The notes under the pieces: model-generated
The model's input: only the letters and a program-made list of their open reading frames with translations
What the model was told of the DNA's origin: nothing
Database searches by the model: none
Part shown: positions 25,896-40,549 of the stretch, piece after piece
Numbering within the stretch: position 1 is the first letter of the stretch
Layout of the letters: each line of letters opens with the position of its first letter
DNA from: Snodgrassella alvi
Lineage (GTDB): Bacteria; Pseudomonadota; Gammaproteobacteria; Burkholderiales; Neisseriaceae
Direction of reading: 5' to 3'
NCBI RefSeq assembly: GCF_002777745.1
Contig: NZ_MEIO01000056.1
Coordinates: 1 to 44,118 of the forward strand
Length of the DNA: 44,118 nucleotides
Translations under genes and position numbers: made by a program

Positions 25896-26393
25896 TTAAC
25901 GCATCAGTTTCTGCTGCTGACGCAAACGCCAGTACTGTTGTTGCTGTTTTGGCGTCAGAATCTGGTAGATATCGTGCTCACGTTTCAACTGTAAGAAATC
26001 ATAGTCAGCACGTGCCTGTTGCTGTTGTGCCCAGATATGCTGCTCCTGTGCAATCATATTTTTGGCCTTAGCATCATCAAACTGCTTGCTTACCACCAGA
26101 TTTTTGCGTTCCTGACGCAGATTGGCCAGAGTTTGGCGATTTTCATTGCTCATAAGCGGGCGCTGACTGGCATACTGATGGTCAATCTTTTGTACCAGCG
26201 CTTTCTGCTGAGTATTCAGATTCAACTGTGACAGAATCGAACGCGGACTTACTAGACCATAAGCCGGCGTCTGTTCCTGAACGACTACCGTTTCAGTCAT
26301 TACCGCAGTCGGTTGTGCTGTTGCAGCAGCAAAAGCACCCATACTCATGGAAGAGAAAGCAGCAAGCGTTACTACACGGGCAATAGTTCTCAT
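25896..26393 (-). CDS. Spy/CpxP-like periplasmic protein
   Basis: A 165-residue exported protein. The start at ATG 26393 is preferred over one ten codons earlier, because AAGGAA sits about nine bases upstream and a clean signal peptide follows (MRTIARVVTLAAFSSMSMGAFAA). The mature part is almost all helix, rich in Gln, Arg and Lys. It has SQLNLNTQQKALVQKIDHQ near the start and YQILTPKQQQQYWRLRQQ at the end, resembling the two LTxxQ repeats of the Spy/CpxP/ZraP family. Those proteins act as periplasmic chaperones or stress/metal sensors. There is no two-component system next to it, but it sits beside the copper receptor. The family call is moderate because the repeats are imperfect. Confidence 0.65.
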   Translation of the reverse strand: MRTIARVVTLAAFSSMSMGAFAAATAQPTAVMTETVVVQEQTPAYGLVSPRSILSQLNLNTQQKALVQKIDHQYASQRPLMSNENRQTLANLRQERKNLVVSKQFDDAKAKNMIAQEQHIWAQQQQARADYDFLQLKREHDIYQILTPKQQQQYWRLRQQQKLMR

Positions 26394-26604
26394 AACACGA
26401 TTCCTTGTTATCTCAGTCAACAATACATTACATCCTCATTTATCAATCAGTATTCCATAAACCAACGTAAAAACAGGAATATAAATGCAATAAATTAGTA
26501 AACAATTCTATTTTGACCCTTTGGTAAGCATCATAGCATCCATCATAAAAGATGCCGTTTTATTCTGCCTGTCAGATACTTTTTACTGCTCAACGCATAA
26601 GCAA

Positions 26605-26838
26605 TTATAGAATCGCCAGCAGCCGCAGTATGGTTGACAGTCCCGGCATAACAATAAAGCACACCAAACCGGAAACTTTAGCCATAACACCATCTGGCAC
26701 AGACATATCAATTAGGCATCGGCTAATGGTTTTTAATGCCCAATACTTACGTATCCCGCACCACAGGGAAATACTCAGTCTGCCACATTCTGGGCACCTT
26801 GCCAGTCGGTCGAAATAACAAAGAATAAAAAAGCGAAA
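26605..26838 (-). pseudogene. 5'-truncated zinc-ribbon membrane protein remnant
   Basis: On the minus strand an open frame reads through YFDRLARCPECGRLSISLWCG, a lone CxxC followed by another Cys. It continues with DMSVPDGVMAKVSG and a hydrophobic segment LVCFIVMPGLSTILRLLAIL before TAA at 26605-26607. No start codon precedes the CxxC, and the open frame runs back into the pgk terminator and ends at a stop there. It therefore looks like the C-terminal part of a gene whose 5' end was lost. The remaining gap (26424-26604) shows nothing. Confidence 0.45.
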
Positions 26839-26860
26839 TCACTGCACATAGTGATTTCGC
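26833..26860 (-). terminator. pgk rho-independent terminator
   Basis: Perfect 11-bp stem GCGAAATCACT/AGTGATTTCGC with a 6-base loop. On the minus strand it is followed directly by TTTTTTATT. It lies 46 bases after the pgk stop. Confidence 0.9.
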
Positions 26861-26905
26861 CAGAATTAATGGCACCACAACAGCGCCAGCAGGCTTTATC
26901 AGGAA

Positions 26906-28081
26906 TCAGGCGCGGGCAGTTAATGCCGCTACGGCTGGCAAAGTCTTACCCTCAAGAAATTCCAGAAACGCCCCGCCACCAGTACTGATATAACTGATGT
27001 CATCAGTAACGCCAAACTGGGCAATGGCAGCTAGCGTATCCCCGCCACCAGCAATCGAATAAGCATCACTCTGAGCGATCGCCTCGGCCAGCACCTGAGT
27101 ACCATGCGCAAATGAGGCAAATTCAAATACCCCTACCGGCCCATTCCATACAATGGTTTTTGCCGTTTGCATCATTTGTGCCAACCTTTGCGCCGATTGT
27201 GGACCAATATCCAGAATCATGTCATCCGCAGCCACATCCGCCACATTTTTGATTTCAGCAGGTGCATCCGCTGCAAAACTTTTGGCCACCACCACATCAG
27301 TAGGCAAAGGAATATCGCCGCCCTTGGCTGCTATCTTAGCCATAATCTGCCGTGCATTTTCCACCAGATCAGTTTCAGCCAGAGATTGCCCGACAGGCAA
27401 GCCCTGTGCCAGCAAAAACGTATTGGCAATCCCGCCACCAACAATCAAATAATCCACTTTATCTGCCAGACTTTCCAGAATGGTCAGTTTAGTAGAAACT
27501 TTACTTCCACCAACAATAGCCACCACTGGTGCCTGTGGATTCTGCACCGTGTGGGTCAATGCTTCCAGCTCTGCTGTCAACAACATGCCGGCACAGGCCA
27601 GTGGTGCTACCGCAGCCACTGCCGCTGTGGAAGCTTCAGCACGATGTGCCGTACCAAAAGCATCATTAACATACACATCACCCAGTGCCGCATAAGCCGC
27701 TGCTAGAGTATGGTCATTTTCCTTTTCGCCTATATTCAGACGCACATTAGGCAGCATAACTACTTCAGCAGCCTGTAATTGCGGTTTATGCTCACGCCAG
27801 TCTTCCACTACTCTGACACTCTGCCCCAGCAATTCTCCCAGACGCTGAGCCACCGGTGCCACACTGTCTTCCGGTTTGGGTGCACCCGCTTTCGGACGTC
27901 CCAGATGCGTCAGCACCACTACCGCTGCCCCTTGCTGCAAACAATAACGAATTGAGGCCAACGAAGCACGAATACGCGTATCATCAACAATGACACCATC
28001 CTTAATAGGCACATTCATGTCCACCCTAATCACGACAGTCTTACCAGACACATCCTGATCAGCCAATTTTTTAAACAACAT
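26906..28081 (-). CDS. pgk: Phosphoglycerate kinase
   Basis: A 391-residue cytosolic glycolytic kinase interconverting 1,3-bisphosphoglycerate and ADP with 3-phosphoglycerate and ATP. The substrate-binding signature [11 protein letters not shown] is near residues 16-26, and [10 protein letters not shown] (58-67) holds the 3-phosphoglycerate-binding histidine/arginine. The hinge-proximal [13 protein letters not shown] (about 188-200), [11 protein letters not shown] and the C-terminal [10 protein letters not shown] glycine loop are all present. Length is normal for bacterial Pgk. GGAAC lies before the ATG, and the gene has its own strong terminator. It is divergent from the MAPEG gene. Confidence 0.97.
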
Positions 28082-28186
28082 GGTAGAGTTCCCGAAACGA
28101 AAACGCCGACAACATCGCCATACTGCCCAGACGACTACATCATCAACGCATCAAACAGATAAAATTAGTTATAAACCACAAAAAAC

Positions 28187-28213
28187 TTGAAAAACTTTAA
28201 ATTATCTTATAAT
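28187..28213 (+). promoter_or_regulatory. Possible sigma-70 promoter for the MAPEG gene
   Basis: TTGAAA (28187-28192) and a perfect TATAAT (28208-28213) are separated by 15 bases, shorter than the ideal 17. It lies about 105 bases upstream of the MAPEG start, in the divergent pgk-MAPEG gap. Confidence 0.4.
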
Positions 28214-28317
28214 TTACCCATAGGGTAAAGTCAGAAGCAGGATAAAACCGTTATGATTTCCGCGTACCCACATCCATCCCACCGCAGCACAACCACATAC
28301 ATAAATAGGAAAATATT

Positions 28318-28701
28318 ATGACTCTCGCTTACTGGTGTGTTTTAATCGCTATGCTCTTGCCGTGGATTGCCGCTTCCTATGCCAAAAAAAGTGGTGGTTT
28401 CAGCACCGACGACAATCATCAGCCACGTGAATTTCTGGCTAAGGCTGGAGGCAAAGCAGCACGGGCTAATGCTGCCCAACAAAATGGTTACGAAATTTTT
28501 GCCCCATTCGCTGCCGCTGTAATCATAGCTCATGCAACCGAAAATGCAGCCCAGTTCACTATCAACTTCTGGAGCGTCCTGTTTATCCTCAGCCGTCTGG
28601 GTTATTTTTACTGCTATATCAACGATAAATCTTTTGCCCGTTCCTGTATCTGGGGATTTGGCGTTTTGTGCATTATCGCTCTGTATATCGCCGCAATCTG
28701 A
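28318..28701 (+). CDS. MAPEG family membrane protein
   Basis: A 127-residue protein of the MAPEG type with four likely helices: residues 3-20, 58-73, 81-97 and 107-125. Eukaryotic and some bacterial MAPEG proteins are glutathione- or eicosanoid-related enzymes, but short bacterial ones like this are mostly uncharacterised. The family features are an N-terminal helix, then NHQPREFLAKAGGKAARANAAQQNGYEIFAPFAAAVIIAH (about 37-73), which carries the usual Arg-Ala-x-x-Ala-x-x-Asn-x-x-E/Q core, then the SRLGYFYCYIND loop. AGGAAAATATT precedes the ATG. It is a single-gene unit divergent from pgk. Confidence 0.88.
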   Translation: MTLAYWCVLIAMLLPWIAASYAKKSGGFSTDDNHQPREFLAKAGGKAARANAAQQNGYEIFAPFAAAVIIAHATENAAQFTINFWSVLFILSRLGYFYCYINDKSFARSCIWGFGVLCIIALYIAAI

Positions 28702-29155
28702 ATATAAATGGCTGATATAAAAAATGGTCGGCAGAAGTACACTACAGGCTTTTCAGCTATAAGAAGATAAATTTATGTCCGATTCACACAAATCACCGGT
28801 TGCTGTCTTTACGGTAAGGCTAAACTTGGCCAGAACTGAATAACCTGTCACTGCGTGACTGTCACAGTCGCGCCTGCGGCAAATGAAGTGCCGACCTGTT
28901 AATGACCAACATACATACTGGCAAAATTTACTTTGAGAATAAATAGCTGATTAAATACTACCACTCATCTGAGTGGGCAAAAAAGTATTTTTTAATGCCA
29001 TAAACATAAATACTTTGCAATAACAAATAATCCCCATCCATAGCTAGAAATCGGCTATGAATGGGTTTATGATTACTTTTGATAGTCGCGTCCGATTATT
29101 TATAGAAAAACTATTTACACAAAATCTGATACAGACTGACTCCTATCACACATAA
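28702..29155. other. Intergenic region with weak hairpins
   Basis: No convincing gene. A 22-codon ORF at 28775-28843 (begins MSDSHKSPVAVF) has a fair AAGAAG upstream but stops quickly and may be the start of a lost gene. A small hairpin CCACTC/GAGTGG (28961-28976) is followed by AAAAAAGTATTTTTT. A 12-bp stem with one mismatch (29033-29044 with 29054-29065) lies near the next gene. Neither has a proper T tract for the plus-strand genes. Confidence 0.35.
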
Positions 29156-29443
29156 TTATTGATTTGATTTTTTCCATGCATCAATCATTTCAGGAGTTAT
29201 TTCTTTTTTATAGCAAATGGGCGAATATCCACCCGGTCTGCTCCATGCGCTTCTTTTTCCACAGGAACTACCATTTCTGGCAGTATGGTAAGGACAAGCG
29301 CAAACACTAGGATACTGCTGTATTGATGCATCAATTATTTTTTGCCTGATGGCATCATCTGTTTGCGTGTTTGAACTGGCTTTTGAAAACTGACTTGTAA
29401 AAGACAAAATAACTAATGCTGTAGTAAGTACTAGAAATTTCAT
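29156..29443 (-). CDS. Small exported cysteine-rich protein
   Basis: A 95-residue protein. ATG 29443 is chosen because GAGGAG lies eight bases upstream and a standard signal peptide follows (KFLVLTTALVILSFTSQFSKAS). The mature part holds four cysteines in a compact block: CACPYHTARNGSSCG, then KRSAWSRPGGYSPICY. It ends with a helix ITPEMIDAWKKS. I recall this CACPY...CG-x-RSA-x-SRPGG...CY pattern from many proteobacterial exported small proteins, none with a known function. The cysteines could form two disulphides. No neighbour explains it. Confidence 0.7.
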   Translation of the reverse strand: MKFLVLTTALVILSFTSQFSKASSNTQTDDAIRQKIIDASIQQYPSVCACPYHTARNGSSCGKRSAWSRPGGYSPICYKKEITPEMIDAWKKSNQ

Positions 29444-29677
29444 TTGTGTTATCTCCTCAAAAAACAACAATCAATATTTCATAGCAACATAGATTTTTGA
29501 ACAGCTTCTCCACTGGATTTTAACTGTAAATATATAGACAATAAACTTAAATATGCCTTGGCCAACTAAATGCATAACATGAGTGAAGCAAATATCCTAC
29601 AAATAATAGCCAACAAAAAAATAGCCCTTACCCATCAAATTTTCCAACGGGTAAATAGTACTGTCCAGACGCAAAAA

Positions 29678-29709
29678 CAGACCACATAACACAAGTATTA
29701 TATGGTCTG
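29678..29709 (-). terminator. Terminator of the ato-type operon
   Basis: A 12-bp stem with one wobble (CAGACCATATAA with TTATGTGGTCTG, minus strand) is followed by TTTTTGC. It lies 34 bases after the thiolase stop. Confidence 0.75.
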
Positions 29710-29742
29710 TTATTAATCCAGCATCGCATTGAATCTACAGCA

Positions 29743-30924
29743 TTACATCAGCTCAACAATCATAGCAATACCCTGACCGCCGCCGATACACAACGTAGCC
29801 AAACCAAGCTGGGCATCTCTGGCCTGCATACCATATAACAGGCTAACCAGAATACGCGTACCACTGGCTCCAATCGGATGGCCGATGGCAATTGCACCAC
29901 CATGAACATTGGTTTTATCCATATCAAAGTGCAGCTCACGGCCTACCCCGAGGAACTGGGCAGCAAAAGCCTCATTTGCCTCAATCAGATCAATATCAGC
30001 CAAAGTCAGGCCTGCTTTCTGTAAGGCTTTCTGCGTAGCAGGTACCGGCCCCAGCCCCATTAGTGCCGGACTCACACCAGCACTGGCATAGCTGCGAATA
30101 CGAGCCAAAGGTTGCAATCCCAGTGCTTTTGCCTTGCTTTCAGACATTACTACTACAGCCGCAGCACCATCATTAATACCGGATGAATTACCCGCAGTAA
30201 CCGTACCTTCGGCACTGAAAGCCGGCTTTAACTTAGCTAGCGCCTCAGCAGTTGCCTCAGCACGCGGATACTCATCGCGTGCAAACACAACATCACCTTT
30301 GCGTGATTTAATTGTCACTGGCACAATTTCCGCATCAAACACACCGGCAGCTACGGCCTGCGCGGCCAGCTGCTGCGAACGCAAAGCCAGCTCATCCTGC
30401 TCTTGGCGACTAATCTGGTATTTCTGCGCAATATTTTCCGCCGTAATACCCATATGATAATGATTAGTGGCGCAAGTCAGTCCATCATGCACCATTGTAT
30501 CAATGACCTGCTGGTTGCCCATACGATAGCCCCAGCGTGCCCGGTTATCAAGCAGATAGGGTGCCCGGCTCATATTTTCCATGCCACCGGCAACCACTAC
30601 CTCAGCATCCTTGGCAGCAATAGCTTGCGCAGCCAAAGCCACTGTTTTCAACCCAGAACCACATACCTTATTAACCGTATAGGCTGGCACCGTATCAGCC
30701 AGTCCAGCTGCCAATGCTGCCTGCCGTGCTGGATTCTGCCCCAGACCTGCCTGTAATACATTGCCCATCATCACTTCATCAACCAGAGCACCTTCAACAC
30801 CGGCACGGCTGATTGCTTCTGCAATCACCAGCTTGCCTAAATCTACTGTACCCACACTGGCCAATGAACCATTAAAACTGCCTACCGGCGTACGCGCCGC
30901 ACTGACAATAACCGCACTTTCCAT
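29743..30924 (-). CDS. Acetyl-CoA acetyltransferase (thiolase)
   Basis: A 393-residue degradative-type thiolase that splits a 3-ketoacyl-CoA, most likely acetoacetyl-CoA, with CoA. ATG 30924 is preferred to GTG two codons earlier because GAGGAG is five bases upstream. The acyl-accepting cysteine is C88 in [11 protein letters not shown]. The activating histidine is in [14 protein letters not shown] near 350, and the second catalytic cysteine is in [11 protein letters not shown]. The acetoacetyl-CoA thiolase loop [14 protein letters not shown] is present. It is the last gene of the operon, 30 bases after atoA, which argues for acetoacetyl-CoA or a close homologue as substrate. Confidence 0.93.
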
Positions 30925-30954
30925 ACTCACTCCTCAACCTGACTATTTTCTGGT

Positions 30955-31620
30955 TTACAAACCACGCTGACTAATTGTCATTTCACAGAAATTTTCAGCC
31001 ACCACAAATTCAGCCTGCGTTTTAGCCTTAATCGTATCCAGATCAACACTCGGAGCATGTTCCTGCAAAACCAGTTGGCCATCTGCAAAGGCAAACACTG
31101 CCAGTTCAGTGACAATCAGATCAACCTTATTTTTTGCCGTTAACGGCAGCGTGCACTGCTTCAGGATTTTGGATTCACCTTGTTTGGTACAGTGTTCCAT
31201 ACCGATAATTACCCGACGTGAACCAGTTACCAGATCCATCGCGCCGCCCATACCCGGTACCATTTTTCCCGGCACCATCCAGTTGGCCAGATTTGCTTCC
31301 TGATCAACTTCCAGCCCGCCCAGCACACAAGCATCAATATGACCACCCCGGATCAGTGCAAATGAAAACGCGCTGTCAAAAGTACAGCCGCCGGCAGCAA
31401 TCCCGCACGGCTGACCACCGGCATTAACCAAATTAGGATTAGCCGTATCCGGATTAAGCGCCGCCAGACCCAAAAAACCATTTTCCGACTGTAGGGTAAT
31501 ATGAATATCTTCCGGCACATAATTAGCTACCTGAGTCGGCAGGCCAATGCCCAGATTCACCACATCCCCATCATTAAATTCCATCGCAATTCTGCGGGCA
31601 ATTAACTCTTTTGCATTCAT
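30955..31620 (-). CDS. atoA: 3-keto-acid CoA-transferase subunit B
   Basis: A 221-residue beta subunit of a class I CoA-transferase. An upstream open frame is ignored, since ATG 31620 has AAGGGAAGAA before it and begins MNAKELIARRIA, as E. coli AtoA does. The catalytic glutamate is in ITLQSENGFLG (E about 46), and GGHIDACVLGGLEVD and GKMVPGMGGAMDLVTGSRRVI closely follow E. coli AtoA. With the alpha subunit it moves CoA from acetyl- or succinyl-CoA to acetoacetate or a related keto acid. It starts 13 bases after atoD ends. The exact keto acid is not given by sequence. Confidence 0.93.
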   Translation of the reverse strand: MNAKELIARRIAMEFNDGDVVNLGIGLPTQVANYVPEDIHITLQSENGFLGLAALNPDTANPNLVNAGGQPCGIAAGGCTFDSAFSFALIRGGHIDACVLGGLEVDQEANLANWMVPGKMVPGMGGAMDLVTGSRRVIIGMEHCTKQGESKILKQCTLPLTAKNKVDLIVTELAVFAFADGQLVLQEHAPSVDLDTIKAKTQAEFVVAENFCEMTISQRGL

Positions 31621-31633
31621 GGTGATTCTTCCC

Positions 31634-32287
31634 TTATTCCGGATAAACAATATAATCAACCAGTGCTGCCGGCGTAATGGCTGCATCCGGCGTAATCTCA
31701 CCCACTTCAACCACATTATTGGCTTCGACAATCACAGTTTTCGCTGCCAGTGCCACCAGTGGATTAAAATTCTGAGCTGACAGCTCATATACCAGATTAC
31801 CCAGCTTATCAGCCGTTTTTGCTTCCACGATGGCTAAATCAGCCTGCAACGGCAATTCCAGCAGAAACTCCTGCCCATTCACCGCAATTTTCTGTTTACC
31901 TTCTTCAACAACCGTACCCAGTCCGGTTGGCGTAAGCACCCCACCCAGACCAGCTCCAGCAGCACGAATCCGCTCCGCCAGCGTCCCCTGCGGTACCAGT
32001 TCAACTTCAATCTCACCGGCAATCATTTTTTTACCGGTTTCCGGATTGGTACCAATATGTGAAGTAATAACCTTTTTAACCCGATTATGCGTAATCAGCG
32101 GACCAACACCGGTTTCAACAAACGCAGTATCATTGCCAATAATCGTTAAATCCTTAACTCCAGCATCTAGAATTGCCTGTACCAGTCTAGCGGGGGTACC
32201 AATCCCCATAAAACCGCCAAACATAATGGTCATGCCATCCCACAGATGATTTTTCACTTCTGTCAAACTGAGCTGTTTCGTTTTCAT
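31634..32287 (-). CDS. atoD: 3-keto-acid CoA-transferase subunit A
   Basis: A 217-residue alpha subunit, very close to E. coli AtoD along its whole length: [19 protein letters not shown] (18-36), [48 protein letters not shown] and LSAQNFNPL. The GGFMGIGTP loop binds CoA. It starts the second half of the operon, 130 bases after the AtuA-like small gene; that gap contains a strong hairpin and a possible weak internal promoter (TTGACT at 32344-32349 and TATTCT at 32323-32328, minus strand, 15 apart). Confidence 0.94.
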
Positions 32288-32379
32288 ACTCTTCTAACCT
32301 GAGACAAACAAAAAAACCGAACAGAATAAGTAATAACCTATCCAGTCAACGGGCACATCAAGGCATATCGCATTGTCTA

Positions 32380-32406
32380 CTGGCAGTGCCGTGACAGCAC
32401 TGCCAG
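32380..32406 (-). promoter_or_regulatory. Intercistronic hairpin inside the ato-type operon
   Basis: A perfect 10-bp GC-rich stem (CTGGCAGTGC/GCACTGCCAG) with a 7-base loop lies 11 bases after the AtuA-like small gene and before atoD. No T tract follows, so it is more likely an mRNA processing or stabilising element, or a partial terminator, than a full stop. Confidence 0.5.
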
Positions 32407-32417
32407 CAATTCAACAA

Positions 32418-32720
32418 TTACTCAATGTCCATGTCCAGAATCGCCGCACTCAATCCTTTGCCATGCATATCATGAGCCAGCGTACGGGTTACCCCGCCAC
32501 CCAAAGCACCATACATCACAAAATTCAGCGCACCGATATTCGGCAACTCGTAACGCACCACATCACCAGTTACAATATCTGCAAAAAAAGCTTTTACTTT
32601 TTCTGCTGTTACCGCCGTTTTAAGAAGTTCATAGTCTTCAGGCCGATAAGCAATTACCGAAATATTTGAGGTATTACCTTTATCACCAGTACGAGAATGT
32701 GCAATTTCACGTAACTTCAT
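32418..32720 (-). CDS. AtuA-associated small subunit (AtuA-like ferredoxin-fold domain)
   Basis: A 100-residue protein that normally accompanies, or is fused to the C-terminus of, AtuA (DUF1446) proteins. It begins MKLREIAHSRTGDKGNTSNIS, has the block VVRYELPNIGALNFVMYGALGGGVTRTLAHDMHGK, and ends DMDIE. An earlier in-frame TTG exists, but the ATG two bases past the AtuA stop has GGAGG seven bases upstream, inside the end of the AtuA gene. This implies tight translational coupling and probably a fixed stoichiometric complex. The glycine-rich block GALGGGVTRTLAHD is the most conserved feature. It has no catalytic motif I can name. Confidence 0.8.
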   Translation of the reverse strand: MKLREIAHSRTGDKGNTSNISVIAYRPEDYELLKTAVTAEKVKAFFADIVTGDVVRYELPNIGALNFVMYGALGGGVTRTLAHDMHGKGLSAAILDMDIE

Positions 32721-32722
32721 TA

Positions 32723-34060
32723 TCAAACCTCCAGATAGTCAATATTGGTTTTAACCAGATCGCGGGAAATATAGGTTGAATCCATCGCTACAATTTCCTT
32801 AACAGACTTCATGGCACCGCCGCCACCAGCCGGTCCATTGGTATACAGCGCTTCTACTTCATTACCAACCACAGCAGCTTCAGCTTTAGTAGCAAAACGG
32901 CCGGCAACACGGGCACGTACCTCATAAGGCTGGCTGTTTTGGGATAAAGTGGCGCCATGCAAAGAGTTAACCCCGATCAGGTCATAACGCACTTCCTGAG
33001 GTTTGACACCTGAAATAGCAAAGCGTTCTTTAACAATATCCAAAGCCAGCTTACCGCGTTCTACTGCTCCCGGGCCGGCATAACTCATTTCCCCTTCACC
33101 AATAAAACCATCTTCATAGCCTACTGATACTTTCAGCGTTTCAGGGCGAGCGCGACCAGTACCACCAGTAACTGCAACACGGTCCTTACCTTCCTGAGTG
33201 AAAGTAATGCTAGAGAAATCAGCAATCACATCTGGCGTTTTGTATTCATCCGGGCGATGAATTTCATACAGCATCTGTTCTTTACAAGTATCAGGAGTTA
33301 CCATCCCGCCAGAGCCCTCAACCTTAGTAATCACCGCATCACCATCAGCACTGATTTCAGCAATCGGAAAGCCCAAGCGTGCCAGATCAGGTACATCACG
33401 ATAGCCCGGGTCAGCAAAATAACCACCGGTAATCTGACCTGCACATTCAAGCAAGTGTCCGAGAATAGTCCCCTTACCCAGATGAACCCAATCTTCTGCG
33501 CCCCACTTGAATTCATGCATCATGATTGACAAAAACAAAGACGGATCAGACACACGACCAGCAATCACAATGTCTGCACCATTGTCCAGCGCCTGAACCA
33601 TAGGTTCCGCACCAATATAAGCATTGGCAGAAACAATTTTCTTACCACATTGCGAAACTGGTTTTTGCAGCTCATCCAGCGGCAAATCCTGTTGCATTAC
33701 CTGCTCATAAACATCATCGCCTTCAATAATGGCAATTTTCAGATTTTTTGCCCCCAGCGAACGCGCAATCTCAGCTGTTACTTTCGCCGCCGCACGTGGA
33801 TTGGCCGAACCCATATTAGTAACAATTTTGATGCCTTTTTCCAAACAGGCCGGCAATACAGCCTGCATACGTGCTGCCAGCAACTCATTAAAGCCAGTTT
33901 CCGGGTTATGTTTTTTCTGCCGCTGTCCGATCGCAATCGTACGCTCTGCCAGACACTCAAACACCAGATACTGAATATCCCCTTTTTCAGCAAGCTCTAC
34001 AGCTGGCTCAATTCGGTCTCCACCATATCCGGCACCACAACCAATCCTGATTTTCTTCAT
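32723..34060 (-). CDS. AtuA family (DUF1446) protein
   Basis: A 445-residue protein of the acyclic terpene utilisation AtuA family. It begins with the basic glycine-rich MKKIRIGCGAGYGGDRIEPA and has FECLAERTIA, TNMGSANPRAAAKV, VIAGRVSDPSLFL and CAGQITGGYFADPG. It ends with GPAGGGGAMKSVKEIVAMDSTYI. All are family blocks. In Pseudomonas, AtuA is encoded in the citronellol/geraniol degradation cluster and has been proposed to take part in the late lyase step on a 3-hydroxy-3-methylglutaryl-like intermediate; direct biochemistry is thin. Here it is 43 bases downstream of a CitMHS transporter and coupled to its small partner. The rest of a terpene pathway (geranyl-CoA carboxylase, acyl-CoA dehydrogenases) is absent from the operon, so terpene degradation is unlikely to be its local role. 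Confidence 0.85.
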   Translation of the reverse strand: MKKIRIGCGAGYGGDRIEPAVELAEKGDIQYLVFECLAERTIAIGQRQKKHNPETGFNELLAARMQAVLPACLEKGIKIVTNMGSANPRAAAKVTAEIARSLGAKNLKIAIIEGDDVYEQVMQQDLPLDELQKPVSQCGKKIVSANAYIGAEPMVQALDNGADIVIAGRVSDPSLFLSIMMHEFKWGAEDWVHLGKGTILGHLLECAGQITGGYFADPGYRDVPDLARLGFPIAEISADGDAVITKVEGSGGMVTPDTCKEQMLYEIHRPDEYKTPDVIADFSSITFTQEGKDRVAVTGGTGRARPETLKVSVGYEDGFIGEGEMSYAGPGAVERGKLALDIVKERFAISGVKPQEVRYDLIGVNSLHGATLSQNSQPYEVRARVAGRFATKAEAAVVGNEVEALYTNGPAGGGGAMKSVKEIVAMDSTYISRDLVKTNIDYLEV

Positions 34061-34103
34061 AGGTCATACCTCTTTTATATTTAACTAATCAAAAACAGCC
34101 TGT

Positions 34104-35471
34104 TTATATCGGGAATACCCCAGTCAACACCGCACCAATAGCCATCACGATAGACGCCAGCCAAAGAATCGGAATACAGAATTTCTGATGGTCAGCCAAA
34201 TCCACACCACACAAACTGCATAACAAAAATGTAGCTGGTGTTAACGGACTAACCGGGAAACCGGTAGTCATCTGTCCCAATAAAGACGCCTGTGCTACCT
34301 GAATTGGTGGGAATCCGCCAATATTGGCCACCACCGGCATAATGCCGAAATAATAAGAATCAGGATCAAATACCAGACTCAACGGCATCGCTACCAAACT
34401 AACAATAAACGGAATATGTGAAGACAAACCATCAGGCACAAACTGACCGGCAGAAGCCGCCATGGCTTTCAGCATACCGGATTCACCCATAATGCCCGTA
34501 AATACACTAGCAGCAAACAGAATTGATGCCATCATCAGTGCGCCCTTGGCATGAGCATTAATTCGTGCAGACTGCTCAGCCGGCTTACGGTAATTCAACG
34601 TCAGTGCAATACAGCAGGCCACCATAAAAATAACCACTGGTGGTATTTTGGTGGTTACCATTCCCAGAATCACCAGAATCACCAGAGTAATATTCGGCCA
34701 GAACAAGTGCGGACGGCGCAGCTTACGTTCTTCTTCTGTCAGCTCCTTGGGTGCAAAATGCGTTATTGCATCTGAATCTTCCTCAGCCGCACCAGCAGCA
34801 TTACCTGCTCCCACTAGCCCCAGACGTTTTTCTTCTTTATGCCCCCAGTACCAGCCCATAAACACCATGAATGCCAGCCCGCAAAGCTGCGCCGGAATCA
34901 GCGGCGTAAACAGATCGTGTGTAGATACATCCAAAGCACCTGCAGCACGAATCATTGGCCCGGTCCACGGCAAAAAATTCACACCAGCACTCAGTGCGGT
35001 AATTCCGGCCAGAATCTTTTTATCAATACCGAGTTTGTCATACAGAGGCAGCATCGCTGGTACAGTAATCAGAAAAGTTACCGCTCCGTTGCCATCCAGA
35101 TGAGCAATTAGCGCCAGGACACCAGTACCAATGATAATTTTCTTCGGGCTAGTACCTACAACTTTCAGAATTTTGGCAATAATCGGATCAAACATCCCCG
35201 CATCACTCACCACACCAAAGAAAATAATGGCGAATACAAACATTGCTGCCATCGGTGCCAGTTTTGCAATGCCGGCCAACACCATTTTCGGAATAGTGGT
35301 GTAATGCGGAAATACTGCTTCCAGACCATTCTGACACAGCGGTACAACATAAAGTGCTACCACAGCCCCTAGAATAGGAATAATAATCAAAGCAACTATC
35401 GGCGATAATCGCTTGCTCATAATGCAAAATAGCAAAATTGCAATAGTCAATATGCCTACTAAAGCCAGCAT
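34104..35471 (-). CDS. CitMHS family citrate/carboxylate:proton symporter
   Basis: A 455-residue polytopic inner-membrane transporter with about 11-12 helices, typical of CitMHS proteins, which import metal-citrate complexes or related carboxylates with protons. Recognisable blocks are AMFVFAIIFFGVVSDAGMFDP (about 74-94), IAHLDGNGAVTFLITVPAMLPLYDKLG (120-146), ITALSAGVNFLPWTGPMIRAA and the later LVFDPDSYYFGIMPV and GFPVSPLTPATFLL. A charged cytosolic loop (EEDSDAITHFAPKELTEEERKLRR) lies mid-protein. GGGGGG precedes the ATG. It is the first gene of the operon, so its substrate presumably feeds the AtuA/Ato enzymes. Citrate itself is only the family default. Confidence 0.92.
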   Translation of the reverse strand: MLALVGILTIAILLFCIMSKRLSPIVALIIIPILGAVVALYVVPLCQNGLEAVFPHYTTIPKMVLAGIAKLAPMAAMFVFAIIFFGVVSDAGMFDPIIAKILKVVGTSPKKIIIGTGVLALIAHLDGNGAVTFLITVPAMLPLYDKLGIDKKILAGITALSAGVNFLPWTGPMIRAAGALDVSTHDLFTPLIPAQLCGLAFMVFMGWYWGHKEEKRLGLVGAGNAAGAAEEDSDAITHFAPKELTEEERKLRRPHLFWPNITLVILVILGMVTTKIPPVVIFMVACCIALTLNYRKPAEQSARINAHAKGALMMASILFAASVFTGIMGESGMLKAMAASAGQFVPDGLSSHIPFIVSLVAMPLSLVFDPDSYYFGIMPVVANIGGFPPIQVAQASLLGQMTTGFPVSPLTPATFLLCSLCGVDLADHQKFCIPILWLASIVMAIGAVLTGVFPI

Positions 35472-35577
35472 AAATGCCCCCTTTTGGGTCGTTATAAATA
35501 AAGAAAAAATTAAATATCCAAGAAAGCCTCCGCATTCTCACCATAACGTCCCAGCCTGTCTAATCGATAATAAAGAT

Positions 35578-35604
35578 GGATTGATAACCAAAACCGATTA
35601 ATCC
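35578..35604. promoter_or_regulatory. Candidate LysR-type operator
   Basis: GGATTGAT, 11 bases, then ATTAATCC form an inverted repeat with one mismatch in the gap between the divergent CitMHS operon and lysR-type gene. Size and position fit a LysR recognition site, whose typical form is an inverted repeat with a T-N11-A core. Confidence 0.45.
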
Positions 35605-35703
35605 AACAACCCATAGAAAACTTGATAAACTTCAAATTGCCTTTACAATAAATATGCTATTGTAGACAGTATTATGGATTAAAATGTCAGCAATTAATGC
35701 TAT

Positions 35704-36591
35704 ATGAATATATCAATAAAACAGATAAAAGCTTTTCTAGCACTGGTAGAAGAAGACAACTTCACCCGAGCAGCACAAAAGATCCATCTATCCCAGCCAG
35801 CCTTCAGCAGCCTCATCGCCAATCTGGAACAAGAAATCGGCTATCGCCTGTTTGACCGAGATACCCGTAAAGTTCAACTGAATGAAAACGGTATCCACTT
35901 CATCAAACTGGCACGTGAACTTATGTTCGCCTACGAACGTACAACCAAAGAAATACGTTCACATGCCAACAATCATCAGGAAAAACTGGTTGTCGCCGTC
36001 ATGCCATCCATCGTTGTACAATGGGTTTCACAGCTTTTAGCTACTTTTCATCGCCAGCATGCCAATATCAAAGTTGAATTACTCGACACTCAATGGGATC
36101 TGTGTCTGCAAGCCTTATTACAAGGACACGCAGAACTGGCCTTAACCGCAAAATCCCCTTCTCTGACAGAAATTTCTTCTGAATTTCTTTTTTCAGATAA
36201 ATTTCATCTCATCTGTCATATCAACCATCCACTGGCCAGTAAAGAAAACATTGAATTAAAAGATTTACTTGAATATGACATGATAGGCTTTACCAAAGGT
36301 ACAAGCATCCGCCACTACGTAGATAAAATTGTTGATTTATTCGGGATTAATTATGTAGTAGAAGTCAGCCAACTCACCACCATGATGGGTCTGGTGGCGG
36401 CCAACTTCGGTATTGGTCTTGTGCCCAGACTGACACTATTTCAGTTCGAGCACAAAAATCTAGTGGTTAAAGATGTCAAAGATATGAATCTGGAGCGCTC
36501 CATTTATCTGATTAAACATAAAGAGCGCAAACTGTCAGTACAAGCAGAGAATTTCTATCACCATATCAAAGCCAACATTTTTAGCAATTAA
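35704..36591 (+). CDS. LysR family transcriptional regulator
   Basis: A 295-residue LysR protein. The N-terminal helix-turn-helix is in IKQIKAFLALVEEDNFTRAAQKIHLSQPAFSSLIANLEQEIGYRLFDRDTRKV (residues 6-58). The effector domain follows, with VAVMPSIVVQWVSQLLATFHRQHANIKVELL (about 98-128) and the second subdomain MMGLVAANFGIGLVPRL. It is divergent from the CitMHS-AtuA-Ato operon, 232 bases away, so it most likely controls that operon with a pathway carboxylate or CoA ester as inducer. Orientation and a candidate operator support this. The effector is unknown. Confidence 0.9.
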   Translation: MNISIKQIKAFLALVEEDNFTRAAQKIHLSQPAFSSLIANLEQEIGYRLFDRDTRKVQLNENGIHFIKLARELMFAYERTTKEIRSHANNHQEKLVVAVMPSIVVQWVSQLLATFHRQHANIKVELLDTQWDLCLQALLQGHAELALTAKSPSLTEISSEFLFSDKFHLICHINHPLASKENIELKDLLEYDMIGFTKGTSIRHYVDKIVDLFGINYVVEVSQLTTMMGLVAANFGIGLVPRLTLFQFEHKNLVVKDVKDMNLERSIYLIKHKERKLSVQAENFYHHIKANIFSN

Positions 36592-36612
36592 CAGCCTGCA
36601 TATCACTGGCCA

Positions 36613-36930
36613 TTATCTGGTAGCAGTGGCTGGTAATGCACGACGGTATTTAGAAGCTGATGCAGCGGGTTGAACAGATCCCCCACTCACACAGATATCA
36701 TTTTGCAGCTTCTCATAAGTTGCCTTACCAATTCCCCTTACACGCATAATGTCCTTTGTGGACTGGAAAGATCCATGTGCATCGCGATAATCAATAATTG
36801 CCTGAGCCTTGACTACACCAATATGCGGTAACGATTGCAGTTGTTTCGATGATGCTGTATTAATATTTACAGCAGCCCATACCGCGGCCATACCAGACAG
36901 CAATACCAGAATCATAAAAATTTTATGCAT
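36613..36930 (-). CDS. comEA: ComEA-like helix-hairpin-helix competence protein
   Basis: A 105-residue exported DNA-binding protein. The open frame extends 42 codons upstream, but ATG 36930 has AGGAGA upstream and is followed by a signal peptide (HKIFMILVLLSGMAAVWAA). The mature part is the ComEA domain: VNINTASSKQLQSLPHIGVVKAQAIIDYRDAHG, then FQSTKDIMRVRGIGKATYEKLQNDI. These are two helix-hairpin-helix motifs with GIGKATYEKL as the second hairpin. The minimal one-domain form is as in Neisseria ComE. It binds incoming double-stranded DNA in the periplasm during natural transformation. A basic tail of about 25 residues ends the protein. It stands alone, convergent with the LysR gene and divergent from tkt. 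Confidence 0.9.
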   Translation of the reverse strand: MHKIFMILVLLSGMAAVWAAVNINTASSKQLQSLPHIGVVKAQAIIDYRDAHGSFQSTKDIMRVRGIGKATYEKLQNDICVSGGSVQPAASASKYRRALPATATR

Positions 36931-37095
36931 TTCTATCTCCTGCCATACCTGATTGAAGAGTCTCGGCATCATAATAGCCGCACTGAAAATTTGCCAAAAG
37001 CATAAAACACAAACAATATTTATGCAATTACTAATTCTTCTATCAAAAATATTCAATTACTCACAACCAGCATAAGCACAAAAAACACACTTACC

Positions 37096-37124
37096 TTGAA
37101 AGGTTTGCACAGATTCAGGATAAT
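37096..37124 (+). promoter_or_regulatory. Sigma-70 promoter for tkt
   Basis: TTGAAA (37096-37101) and GATAAT (37119-37124) are separated by the ideal 17 bases, 97 bases upstream of the tkt start. Confidence 0.65.
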
Positions 37125-37220
37125 TCACACTGGATAAACCCTGTCTCACACAGCAAGGTTCAGCACATTACTTTACATAGCTATTGAAACCAGCTATTTC
37201 CCACATCAAAAGGCAACTTC

Positions 37221-39206
37221 ATGGCATCACATCTTGCTAATGCAATTCGCTTCCTGGCAATGGACGCAATTCAACAGGCCAATTCCGGCCATCCCGGCGC
37301 ACCGATGGGTATGGCCGAAATGGCTACAGTATTGTGGCGCGAATTCCTACAGCATAACCCAGCCAACCCCAAATTCTACAACCGTGACCGCTTCATACTT
37401 TCCAATGGTCACGCTTCCATGCTGTTGTATAGCTTACTACACCTGAGCGGCTATAACCTCAGCATCGAAGACCTGAAAAACTTCCGTCAGTTGCACAGCA
37501 AAACCCCCGGACACCCAGAATATGGCTATACCGATGGCGTAGAAACCACTACCGGCCCATTGGGACAGGGAATCGGAAATGCCGTTGGTCTGGCTCTGGC
37601 AGAAAAAATCCTCGCCGCCCAATTCAATAAACCGGGCTTCAATATCGTTGATCACCATACCTACGTTTTCGTTGGTGACGGATGCCTGATGGAAGGTATA
37701 TCCCACGAAGTATGCTCACTGGCCGGAACTTTAAAATTAGGTAAACTGATTGTTCTGTATGACGACAACAACATCTCTATTGATGGCAAAGTAGACAACT
37801 GGTTTAGCGAAAATATTCCCGAACGCTTCGCTGCCTACGGCTGGCACACCATCGCCAATGTAGACGGTCATAACGAATCAGCTATCCGAGCAGCCATTAC
37901 TGCCGCCAAAGCCGAAACCGATAAACCGTCAATAATCTGCTGTAAAACCAAAATTGGCAAAGGTGCAGCCAATAAGGAAGGCAGCCATAAAACCCATGGT
38001 GCTCCATTAGGTGCCGAAGAAATCGCAGCTACTCGCACAGCTCTAAACTGGCCACATGAACCGTTTACCATTCCACAGGAAATCTATGACGCCTGGAATG
38101 CAGCAGCAAGCGGAGCAAAACTAGAGCAACAGTGGCAGGATTTATTCAACCGCTACCAGCAACAATACCCTACCGAAGCAGCTGAATTTATCCGCCGCAT
38201 GGATGGCAAACTGCCAGAAAACTTTACTGAACACGTACAAAACGCACTAAACAATGTTTGCAGCAAGGCAGAAAAAATTGCTACCCGCAAAGCCAGTCAG
38301 AACAGTATCGAAATCCTAGCACAAATCCTGCCTGAACTGGTCGGAGGTTCTGCTGACCTCACGCCCTCCAACCTAACCGACTGGTCAGACAGCACCGCAG
38401 TAACAGCCACAGGAGGCGGTAACTATATCCATTATGGCGTACGCGAATTTGGCATGGCCGCCATTATGAACGGACTGAGCCTGCATGGCGGTATCAAACC
38501 ATTTGGCGCTACCTTCCTAATGTTCAGCGAATATGCACGTAATGCCTTGCGCATGGCTGCACTGATGCAGATTAATCCGATATTTGTGTTTACGCACGAC
38601 TCTATCGGCCTAGGCGAAGACGGCCCCACACACCAGCCAATCGAACAAATTGCTACCCTGCGCCTGATTCCCAATATGAGCGTATGGCGGCCATGTGACA
38701 GTGCCGAAGCACTGGTAGCCTGGGCTGATGCTGTAGCCGCAGATAATCACCCCAGCTGCCTCATATTCAGCCGTCAGGGACTACCATTTATGCCGCGTGA
38801 TAGCCAGCAACTGGCCAATATCCGTCGTGGCGGCTACGTACTGAAAGCAGCTACCGAAGAAAATGCACAGGCAGTATTGATTGCCACCGGTTCAGAAGTT
38901 GAGCTGGCGATCAATGCCCAGACCAGACTGGCAGAAAAAGGCATAGCTACTCATGTTGTTTCCATGCCCAATACCCATATTTTCGATCAGCAGGACAAAA
39001 CCTATCGTGACAGCGTACTGCCAACCAATTTGCCACGTATTGCCATAGAAGCTGGTGTAAGTGATTCATGGTATAAATATGTCGGCACCAATGGCGCCAT
39101 TATCGGCATCAACCGTTTTGGCGAATCCGCGCCCGCAGAGCAGCTGTTTCAGGAATTTGGCTTCACAGTTGATCAAGTTGTCGATGTGGTTAAAAGCGTT
39201 ATTTAA
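37221..39206 (+). CDS. tkt: Transketolase
   Basis: A 661-residue cytosolic thiamine-diphosphate enzyme of the non-oxidative pentose phosphate pathway that moves two-carbon units between sugar phosphates. Signs of the family: [15 protein letters not shown] (21-35), [18 protein letters not shown] (about 61-78), [17 protein letters not shown] (about 113-129), and the ThDP-binding [18 protein letters not shown] ending in the DDNNISIDG loop (about 153-189). The pyrimidine half contains [15 protein letters not shown], the active-site [16 protein letters not shown] and [14 protein letters not shown]. Length is normal. AAGG lies before the ATG, and the gene has its own promoter and terminator. Confidence 0.98.
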
Positions 39207-39222
39207 TCCCAGCCATATAAAA

Positions 39223-39250
39223 AGCCAGCAAAATCTGCTGGCTTTTTTTA
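39223..39250. terminator. tkt terminator
   Basis: Perfect 8-bp stem AGCCAGCA/TGCTGGCT with a 5-base loop followed by seven T. It sits 16 bases after the tkt stop and between convergent genes; the A stretch before the stem may also serve the MHS transporter gene. Confidence 0.92.
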
Positions 39251-39268
39251 AATCAGCTTACAGCCAAT

Positions 39269-40549
39269 TTAATCTTTCACATTAACATGACGTGTTTCCG
39301 GCATCATCAAAATCGCGATAATAGATAATATACTGGTACCAGCCACATAGTAGGCCATCGATAACACGCCAAAATTATTAATCAACCAGGCAAAAACAAA
39401 CTGTGCTGTACCGCCAAACAACGTAACACCAATAGCATAAACAACGGATACCCCGGTTGCGCGCAGTGCAATCGGCATCATTTCCGGAATCGCTACCAGA
39501 CTACTGGCTCCGCTCATACCAGTTAACAACGTTATCATCATCGTCACCAGTAGCAGTATAACCACACTTTCTGTTTTCACCAGCAGATAAAACATCGGCA
39601 CAATCAGCAGCATCAAAGCCACACGTGGCCATAACATAATGCTTTTACGACCATATTTATCGGCCAGAAGTCCCGCCAGCAAAGAAAACAGAAACATCAT
39701 CAACCCACCTGAAATCGTACAGACTTGTGCAATCTTTGGATTAAATTTCAGCGTATTGATAGCAAAAGTAGTCATATAATTGCCTACCTGAGCGGTAATA
39801 GCAGTTGCCATCAACACCATGATGCCCAATATCACCTCTTTTCTATAGCGAGTGAATATTATCGTCAGCATCTCAGTATCATTGTGATATGTAGGCTCTT
39901 CCAGAGTTTCCGGCAAAGCGCGGCGAATATACAGAGCAATCGGAATCAGAGCCAGACTCACCAGAAAAGGTATGCGCCAGCCCCATGTACCCAGCTGTTC
40001 TTGCGTCAAATTACTAGAAACAACATAACCAACCAAACCGGCAACCATTACCGCCACCCCCTGACTGGCCATCTGCCAACTGGCATAAAAAGCACGTTTA
40101 TTTGGCGGAGCAGACTCAATCAGCATTGCAGAAGCCGGACCAACCTCACCACCCAAAGCCAGCCCCTGAATCATGCGCGCAATAACCACAATAATCGGCG
40201 CAGCAATCCCAATCTTTTCATAACTGGGAGTAGCCGCTAACCCAAGCGTACCTAAGGTTATCAGTGCCACCGTCAGCATCATCGCTGCCCGACGTCCCTT
40301 TTTATCTGCATAAGCACCAATTAGTACACCACCTAACGGCCGCGTAAAAAAACCCACTCCGAACACAGCTAGTGCAGACAGCAAACTTACGTATCCATCA
40401 CCTGAGGGGAAAAATGATTTCCCAATATACACTGCAAAAAACGAATAAATAATAAAATCGTAAAATTCCAGTGCATTCCCTGCCACCGCCGCCGCAATCG
40501 ACTTCGCCGGTGGTTTGTTGTGTTCAAGCGCCACTTGTCCCGTACTCAT
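39269..40549 (-). CDS. MFS transporter, metabolite:H+ symporter (MHS) family
   Basis: A 426-residue 12-helix transporter of the MHS branch of the major facilitator superfamily, which includes ProP, ShiA, KgtP and citrate carriers. The family N-terminus GNALEFYDFIIYSFFAVYIGKSFFP (about 24-48) is followed by FFTRPLGGVLIGAYADKKGRR, the motif A loop (about 67-87), and RMIQGLALGGEVGPASAMLIE (about 124-144). The second half has ADKYGRKSIMLWPR. The substrate cannot be read from these motifs, but the upstream gene 40 bases away is an M20 amidohydrolase on the same strand. The carrier may therefore import its amide-linked substrate or export a product. Confidence 0.88.
   Translation of the reverse strand: MSTGQVALEHNKPPAKSIAAAVAGNALEFYDFIIYSFFAVYIGKSFFPSGDGYVSLLSALAVFGVGFFTRPLGGVLIGAYADKKGRRAAMMLTVALITLGTLGLAATPSYEKIGIAAPIIVVIARMIQGLALGGEVGPASAMLIESAPPNKRAFYASWQMASQGVAVMVAGLVGYVVSSNLTQEQLGTWGWRIPFLVSLALIPIALYIRRALPETLEEPTYHNDTEMLTIIFTRYRKEVILGIMVLMATAITAQVGNYMTTFAINTLKFNPKIAQVCTISGGLMMFLFSLLAGLLADKYGRKSIMLWPRVALMLLIVPMFYLLVKTESVVILLLVTMMITLLTGMSGASSLVAIPEMMPIALRATGVSVVYAIGVTLFGGTAQFVFAWLINNFGVLSMAYYVAGTSILSIIAILMMPETRHVNVKD

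Follow-up and report, generated by a model that had tools for sequence, protein, structure and literature searches.

A CitMHS-AtuA-AtoDA-thiolase operon of Snodgrassella alvi as a candidate route for the breakdown of host-derived 3-hydroxy-3-methylglutarate

A candidate for a published gap

Which genes allow the bee gut symbiont Snodgrassella alvi to break down 3-hydroxy-3-methylglutarate (3Hmg)? A 2024 study reported that this host-derived compound is consumed by S. alvi with production of acetate, and the legend to its Fig. 6 gives the first two steps of 3Hmg breakdown as unannotated in the S. alvi genome (PMC11343714). We address the question through an operon in a stretch of 44,118 nt, hereafter the window, from S. 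alvi assembly GCF_002777745.1 (contig NZ_MEIO01000056.1; genome of 2.6 Mb). A preliminary description of the window had listed six minus-strand genes at 29743-35471, running from CitMHS through AtuA, a small AtuA partner, AtoD and AtoA to a thiolase, with a LysR gene diverging at 35704-36591, and had called them a carboxylate pathway of unknown substrate. Profile searches placed genes of the named families at exactly these coordinates and in this order, and because the identical order is present in many named records, it is not a product of chance.

We consider it likely that the operon is a catabolic route for host-derived 3Hmg, built around a lyase of the CmlAB type that consists of AtuA and AtuS and probably acts on the free acid ("AtuS" is a name coined here for the separate small AtuA_ferredoxin protein). 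The operon is the best candidate for the unannotated 3Hmg steps of S. alvi. The substrate has in this way been narrowed to one leading candidate, even though its identity is still inferred.

The published physiology sets out what such a route would have to explain. All five S. alvi strains depleted 3Hmg, the sole metabolite significantly depleted by all five; Gilliamella did not deplete it. When 3Hmg was added, the rate of growth on citrate rose 3.52-fold, and acetate was made with 3Hmg or with pyruvate. As a single source of carbon S. alvi could use only citrate, isocitrate or malate, and it did not grow on 3Hmg alone; S. alvi is said to lack the glyoxylate shunt, and acetate is called a key driver of its tricarboxylic acid (TCA) cycle (all PMC11343714). 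When Snodgrassella was left out of a defined bee community, 3-hydroxy-3-methylglutaric acid rose in the gut (PMC13214017). Another paper lists 3Hmg as an Acinetobacter metabolite, with no matching genes given in the portion drawn on (PMC4213383). Our literature search, with preprints and most subscription papers outside its reach, found no paper that links the genes described here to 3Hmg.

The AtuA-AtuS pair and citramalate lyase

The AtuA gene (32723-34060, minus strand) is followed after 2 nt by that of AtuS (32418-32720, minus strand). AtuA matched PF07287 over residues 4-441 of 445 (534 bits against a curated cut-off of 22.8; E 3.4e-160), and the 100-residue AtuS matched the AtuA_ferredoxin family PF23544 (E 2.4e-37). 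A sequence search of the PDB with the single AtuA yielded one match, 9erq (E 0.018), which returned at E 3.5e-6 when the search was made with a profile of 81 AtuA rows (the window and the 80 loci surveyed below); the entry is named AtuA family / citramalate lyase subunit A (cmlA). We then compared AlphaFold2 models of the two proteins (mean predicted local distance difference test score 93.5 for AtuA and 89.8 for AtuS) with the PDB using Foldseek. At E <0.001 each model had a single fold match: 9evf_A for AtuA (E 3.6e-24; template modelling scores 0.73/0.71) and 9evf_B for AtuS (E 1.2e-4; 0.71/0.68). The title of 9evf is "Citramalate lyase - ADP - pyruvate complex" (ADP, adenosine diphosphate). 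As a match by predicted fold, both subunits point to one and the same two-chain enzyme, the citramalate lyase CmlA/CmlB.

The AtuA profile also matched the CmlA of Budvicia (E 1.4e-11; 24% identity over 305 columns). Among 20 positions identical in the window's AtuA and Budvicia CmlA, chosen by eye from the profile alignment, 14 do not vary across the 81 AtuA rows. These include G168-R169, D172, E205-C206, Y265-E266, P270 and K310, and the motifs GRxxDP and LECA are common to AtuA and CmlA.

Close relatives of the solved CmlA and CmlB lie in Budvicia directly after methylaspartate ammonia-lyase, where cleavage of citramalate to pyruvate and acetate would be the expected next step. A DUF1446 gene had been noted downstream of the ammonia-lyase in enterobacteria, in a 2015 paper that called the fate of citramalate unclear (PMC4682846); the names of the CmlAB entries in the PDB suggest the answer, and the literature search, within the limits given above, found no paper describing these structures. 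The Budvicia cluster (L138:3685-11647, contig C33 of genome G042) comprises mutase S, MutL, mutase E, the ammonia-lyase, CmlA, CmlB and a sodium:dicarboxylate symporter, and it coexists with an operon of the type described here, so that one genome holds two AtuA-family lyase pairs. That coexistence argues against a citramalate lyase role for both. A scan of the genes around the S. alvi operon, covering 25896-40549, found neither glutamate mutase nor ammonia-lyase.

AtuA-like lyases are also found in a different setting: thnQ and thnS, two such genes, stand beside a CoA-transferase gene in clusters for anaerobic naphthalene degradation (PMC12016498; CoA, coenzyme A). This is another place where a lyase of the AtuA/CmlAB type would make sense.

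A predicted route from 3Hmg to acetyl-CoA

The other proteins of the operon would supply what such a lyase needs on either side. The CitMHS protein (34104-35471, minus strand), which matched PF03600 and exceeded the cut-off of the citrate:proton symporter model TIGR00784 (364.4 bits; cut-off 259.7), would import 3Hmg together with protons. AtuA-AtuS would then split 3Hmg into acetoacetate and acetate, probably as the free acid and probably with the help of adenosine triphosphate (ATP), given that the solved relative 9evf holds ADP. That ADP suggests that ATP may activate the carboxylate; alternatively, ADP may stand in for CoA as a mimic. The underlying logic would be removal of a CH2-COO arm from a tertiary beta-hydroxy acid to leave acetate and an oxo compound, a reaction that would turn citramalate into pyruvate and 3Hmg into acetoacetate.

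AtoDA and the thiolase fit this prediction because acetoacetate needs exactly these enzymes. AtoDA would transfer CoA from acetyl-CoA to acetoacetate. AtoD (31634-32287, minus strand) scored 375.6 bits against a cut-off of 315 for the acetate CoA-transferase model NF007394, which makes acetyl-CoA the likely CoA donor, with release of a second acetate. AtoA (30955-31620, minus strand, with its ATG at 31620; the searches used 30955-31623, one codon further upstream) scored 302.2 bits with TIGR02428 (cut-off 243.55), as expected of a 3-oxoacid/acetate CoA-transferase subunit B, and both subunits belong to PF01144. The thiolase (29743-30930, minus strand; PF00108/PF02803), an acetyl-CoA C-acyltransferase, would convert acetoacetyl-CoA and CoA to two acetyl-CoA; it passed the general model TIGR01930 (504.5 bits; cut-off 240.55), and its best specific model, NF004206, stayed below cut-off (558.7 against 688). 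The net reaction would be 3Hmg + CoA giving acetyl-CoA + 2 acetate, any ATP cost of the lyase step being extra, and the product of the divergent LysR gene would activate the operon in response to 3Hmg. Within this scheme we infer the substrate, the role of ATP, the order of CoA transfer and cleavage, the cargo of the transporter and the inducer.

The predicted stoichiometry is in line with the observed acetate and the acetate-driven TCA cycle (PMC11343714). A route that delivers only two-carbon units to an organism without a glyoxylate shunt also predicts the lack of growth on 3Hmg alone; the absence of such growth means, too, that it cannot serve as a test of the operon. The preliminary description had suggested that an imported 3Hmg-like acid is converted to acetoacetate by the AtuA pair and then processed by AtoDA and the thiolase, and this suggestion draws support from the 3Hmg physiology, from the fold match to CmlA/CmlB and from the failure to find an HMG-CoA (3-hydroxy-3-methylglutaryl-CoA) lyase gene.

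That last point comes from a search with PF00682, the HMGL family. The single gene found in the window's genome is leuA, encoding 2-isopropylmalate synthase: it scored 893.2 bits with the 2-isopropylmalate synthase model (cut-off 729) and 62.6 with the HMG-CoA lyase model (cut-off 246). Since this is the only HMGL-family gene, the search gave no HMG-CoA lyase gene for this genome, and we rejected the ordinary HMG-CoA lyase route; none of the nine Snodgrassella genomes searched has more than one PF00682 gene. The terpene pathway (Atu/Liu) was likewise rejected. A search of the genome for a biotin-dependent geranyl-CoA or methylcrotonyl-CoA carboxylase found none, only two part-length carboxyl-transferase matches in frames of 307 and 329 residues, which we take to be the size of AccA and AccD.

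Conservation of the gene order and alternative readings

The preliminary description had offered its proposal for refutation should the gene order prove not to be conserved elsewhere; we find that the order recurs in other Proteobacteria. We surveyed the best 80 of 501 confirmed AtuA loci (there are at least 501 in total), which with the window make 81 rows. Four of these loci break off downstream, and one upstream, at a distance of less than 1.5 kb, and the neighbour counts are therefore lower bounds. AtuS lies downstream of AtuA in all 80 loci; in a Tardiphaga locus (L063) it stands about 1.7 kb away rather than adjoining. CitMHS adjoins AtuA in at least 52 of the 81 rows, and at least 26 have both CitMHS and AtoD beside AtuA, with a thiolase within 5.5 kb in at least 22 of those. 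A further 26 rows carry CitMHS-AtuA-AtuS without AtoD nearby, and 29 have neither CitMHS nor AtoD.

The full order together with the divergent LysR gene is present in Budvicia, Pectobacterium, Brenneria, Samsonia, Entomohabitans, Yersinia massiliensis and a record named Martelella alba. Orbaceae strain ESL0727 (L033:11152-12495) has the whole order with a short-chain fatty acid transporter (PF02667) inserted between atoA and the thiolase gene, and records of Rhizobium, Azospirillum, Xanthobacteraceae and Rubrivivax also combine CitMHS, AtuA, AtuS, AtoD, AtoA and thiolase. On a quick AtuA tree of the 81 rows, in which 34 of 78 inner branches are weakly supported, the presence of AtoD downstream changed state at least seven times, so AtuA seems to have been linked with a 3-oxoacid CoA-transferase repeatedly. 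Relatives differ in their transporter, with a TRAP-TAXI system in some and a TctC receptor or ABC system nearby in others. AtuA and AtuS are the constant core, around which the importer and the finishing enzymes vary.

These counts bear on the order of the reactions. With the same substrate, AtoDA could act first to make 3-hydroxy-3-methylglutaryl-CoA, the AtuA pair could cleave this ester to acetoacetyl-CoA and acetate, and the thiolase would finish the route. AtoDA and thiolase are both at hand in the operon, the ADP in 9evf could mimic the nucleotide end of CoA, and terpene AtuA has been assigned an acetate-releasing cleavage of a CoA ester (PMC4847356). The 26 rows with CitMHS-AtuA-AtuS and no AtoD nearby suggest free acids, on the other hand, as does the CmlAB relative, which is named for the free acid citramalate. 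We regard the reversed order as unlikely, while giving it some weight.

Free-acid cleavage of 3Hmg also has to be weighed against citrate or citramalate as the substrate, with CitMHS importing citrate and the AtuA pair acting as a citrate or citramalate lyase. The score of CitMHS above the citrate:proton symporter cut-off, the identity of the solved fold relative as a citramalate lyase, and the growth of S. alvi on citrate alone and not on 3Hmg alone (PMC11343714) speak for it. The products, however, would be acetate with oxaloacetate or pyruvate, and these call for no 3-oxoacid CoA-transferase and no thiolase, whereas both enzymes follow in at least 22 of the 81 rows and each of the 10 Snodgrassella carriers examined has the thiolase in place; in Budvicia, moreover, a second citramalate lyase would be redundant beside the separate CmlAB. 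Because it leaves AtoDA and the thiolase unexplained, we set citrate or citramalate aside as the main substrate and keep it as a quite improbable rival.

The breadth of the distribution raises one more alternative, namely that the operon handles a related plant or microbial 3-hydroxy-3-substituted acid, such as another 3-alkyl-3-hydroxyglutarate or another acid that yields a 3-oxo acid, and that other genes deal with 3Hmg in bees. Pectobacterium, Brenneria, Yersinia massiliensis and other bacteria carry this operon too, and to our knowledge these three are not bee symbionts; the variable transporter of the relatives also fits such a reading. Against it, with no HMG-CoA lyase gene found in the genome, a different 3Hmg route would need yet another lyase, and we give this possibility little credence.

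Our preference for 3Hmg has to accommodate a number of points that weigh against it. Its support comes from genome evidence and published physiology, and S. alvi wkB2 is a putative carrier of the operon. By name the transporter carries citrate, one of the main substrates of the organism. Rows without AtoD, or without both AtoD and CitMHS, imply that relatives may act on other acids. Foldseek aligned AtuA with 9evf_A at 17% identity and a root-mean-square deviation of 5.5 Å over 493 gapped columns, and at such low identity to CmlA the fold leaves the substrate unfixed. AtuS (PF23544) and Budvicia CmlB (PF14330, DUF4387) belong to different Pfam families, and a sequence-profile comparison of AtuS with CmlB gave no similarity (probability 0.3). 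The terpene precedent is itself disputed: the acetate-releasing step from 3-hydroxy-3-isohexenylglutaryl-CoA to the 3-oxoacyl-CoA is assigned to AtuA in one paper (PMC4847356) and to LiuE in a review (PMC4097962). For the same reason we cannot follow without reservation the earlier view that AtuA would be working outside its named role, as the first of these assignments is already an acetate-releasing lyase reaction.

Some loci in the survey differ more widely. In L046, AtuA and AtuS lie between two amidases, among genes for a DUF2848 protein and a branched-chain-type ABC transporter, and clusters of open reading frames resembling it occur in L051, L053 and other rhizobial loci; judging from these neighbours, such loci probably serve another substrate, perhaps an amide or lactam. 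A plasmid search found 164 records with a match, 105 of them over at least 80% of the query. Two of the 11 plasmid neighbourhoods examined (37% and 42% identity) include carboxylase and acyl-CoA genes that resemble those of terpene pathways, and two are unannotated.

Distribution in Snodgrassella and probable horizontal gain

AtuA of the window is 93-98% identical to that of five loci (four titled Snodgrassella and one from an uncultured Neisseriaceae metagenome-assembled genome), and all five have the whole operon; these matches place the window's genome in Snodgrassella. PF07287 was found in 11 of 14 Snodgrassella genomes, the window's included, one of the three without it being only 60% complete, and in none of 11 genomes that represent other genera in the family. 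The 10 carriers in which the thiolase is in place are those of the 11 AtuA-bearing genomes that were examined downstream (G001 was left out): the window's genome, those of the five loci, and G006, G008, G010 and G013.

In the AtuA tree, Snodgrassella and Orbaceae strain ESL0727 form a group of seven rows (Shimodaira-Hasegawa-like approximate likelihood ratio test, SH-aLRT, 99), nested in a group of 18 rows (support 99) that otherwise consists of eight Enterobacterales, two Marinomonas and the one Martelella alba record. Among the best 80 of 501 loci, the nearest AtuA relative outside Snodgrassella is that of ESL0727, in whose family 7 of 44 genomes have AtuA. A taxonomically nearer carrier outside the family, Pseudogulbenkiania (order Neisseriales by record name), has an AtuA only 63% identical.

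Two near-complete Snodgrassella genomes, G011 and G012, lack AtuA and AtoD; the operon's thiolase has no match in G011 and matches of only 62% and 41% in G012. In both (loci L147 and L148) the flanking genes for phosphoglycerate kinase, a MAPEG protein, a helix-hairpin-helix protein and transketolase are present in the same order as in carriers, and 19.5 kb around these flanks contain no AtuA, AtoD, CitMHS, LysR or thiolase gene. The gap between the MAPEG and helix-hairpin-helix genes, where the operon would be, measures about 140 nt in G011 and about 270 nt in G012, the latter genome having a PhoH/PIN-domain gene between the helix-hairpin-helix and transketolase genes.

The position of the Orbaceae protein as nearest relative within a mostly enterobacterial group, the absence from all 11 genomes of other genera and the two operon-less Snodgrassella genomes indicate that Snodgrassella probably acquired the operon horizontally. 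The empty sites fit insertion of the operon as a unit, although it may instead have been lost in these two lineages. Composition gives no sign of foreign origin, with a G+C content of 47.9% for the operon and 46.0% for the window.

Boundaries, regulator and neighbouring genes

Within the operon the genes are separated by 24 nt (thiolase-AtoA), 13 nt (AtoA-AtoD), 130 nt (AtoD-AtuS) and 43 nt (AtuA-CitMHS), in addition to the 2 nt between AtuS and AtuA. The rho-independent terminator assigned earlier to 29678-29709 (minus strand) holds up: the minus strand of 29665-29722 folds at -24.9 kcal/mol, where shuffled sequences average -8.7 (z -6.8; none of 200 shuffles folds as well), with TTTTT after the hairpin. 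A consensus scan did not list this terminator despite its strong computed fold.

The LysR gene (35704-36591, plus strand; PF00126 and PF03466) is separated from CitMHS by 232 nt. Its product is 84-98% identical to those of the five Snodgrassella-group loci, 70% to that of the Orbaceae locus and 35-59% to those of eight Enterobacterales loci. Within the gap, at 35557-35603, two stretches are largely, though not fully, kept in the window, the five Snodgrassella-group loci and the Orbaceae locus: 35557-35571 (minus strand ATTATCGATTAGACA) and 35579-35603 (minus strand GATTAATCGGTTTTGGTTATCAATC). Both stretches are candidate LysR operators only.

A second AtoD and thiolase are encoded in the window's genome and in three other Snodgrassella genomes (G003, G006 and G010), and in G008 and G013 the copies in the operon are the only matching ones. 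In the window's genome this second set lies on contig C55 (L139:3288-9198), where genes for CoA-transferase A and B, a short-chain fatty acid transporter and a thiolase are followed by one for a PAS sensor kinase. Close to the operon, 39269-40549 encodes a major facilitator superfamily carrier (PF07690) that is nearest to metabolite/H+ and tricarballylate/proton symporter models, below the NCBIfam cut-offs (TcuC model, 319.5 against 445), and may be a second tricarboxylate importer. A search of the genome for another citrate carrier with TIGR00882, a model weakly suited to the purpose, gave no match.

Implications

Snodgrassella serves as a model for the feeding of a gut symbiont by its animal host, and the operon, if our assignment is true, fills a published gap in the use of a host acid. 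A named cluster of seven genes makes the link to 3Hmg testable, and G011 and G012, which lack the operon, provide a natural test of the prediction. The assignment would, in addition, provide a function for a common and poorly named family ("acyclic terpene utilization AtuA family", DUF1446), which lies beside a CitMHS carrier in many of the loci surveyed, and would suggest a chemistry shared across the AtuA family. CmlAB and AtuA already represent this class of enzyme; what would be new is the substrate and the setting.

A bolder proposal, for and against which we see the balance as about even, is that AtuA-AtuS is a previously unrecognised, nucleotide-assisted 3Hmg:acetate lyase for the free acid; that the AtuA/CmlA superfamily is a further kind of acetate-cutting enzyme beside the acyl carrier protein (ACP)-dependent citrate/citramalate lyase and HMG-CoA lyase; and that the whole operon was gained horizontally and is a molecular basis for the symbiont's feeding on an acid secreted by its host in the bee gut.

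Comparison with known systems

With the atoDAEB operon, the operon described here shares AtoD, AtoA and thiolase for the last two steps; it differs in including the CitMHS importer and the AtuA pair and in having no AtoE. The HMG-CoA lyase route (LiuE, PF00682) likewise takes a 3-hydroxy-3-methylglutaryl skeleton to acetoacetate and acetyl units, whereas here, with no such lyase gene found in the genome, a protein of an unrelated family would make the cut.

Terpene AtuA has in common with the S. alvi protein its membership of PF07287 and, as assigned in PMC4847356, the release of acetate from a 3-hydroxy-3-substituted glutaryl compound. The terpene protein is a single chain of about 600 residues (615 in Thauera, PMC4847356) in place of two split genes, and its substrate is a CoA ester; its pathway includes a hydratase and a biotin carboxylase of a kind not found in this genome.

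The closest likeness is to CmlA/CmlB (9erq and 9evf; DUF1446 and DUF4387 proteins encoded beside methylaspartate ammonia-lyase). AtuS differs from CmlB in Pfam family, and the large subunits are only 17% (9evf_A) and 24% (Budvicia CmlA) identical. The context is a transporter, AtoDA and thiolase here and glutamate mutase and ammonia-lyase there, and the predicted product is acetoacetate in place of pyruvate. In both systems, nonetheless, adjacent genes encode an AtuA-family large subunit of about 450 residues and a partner of about 100, the predicted folds of AtuA and AtuS match both solved chains, and the reaction predicted for each pair would release acetate by cleavage of a tertiary hydroxy acid.

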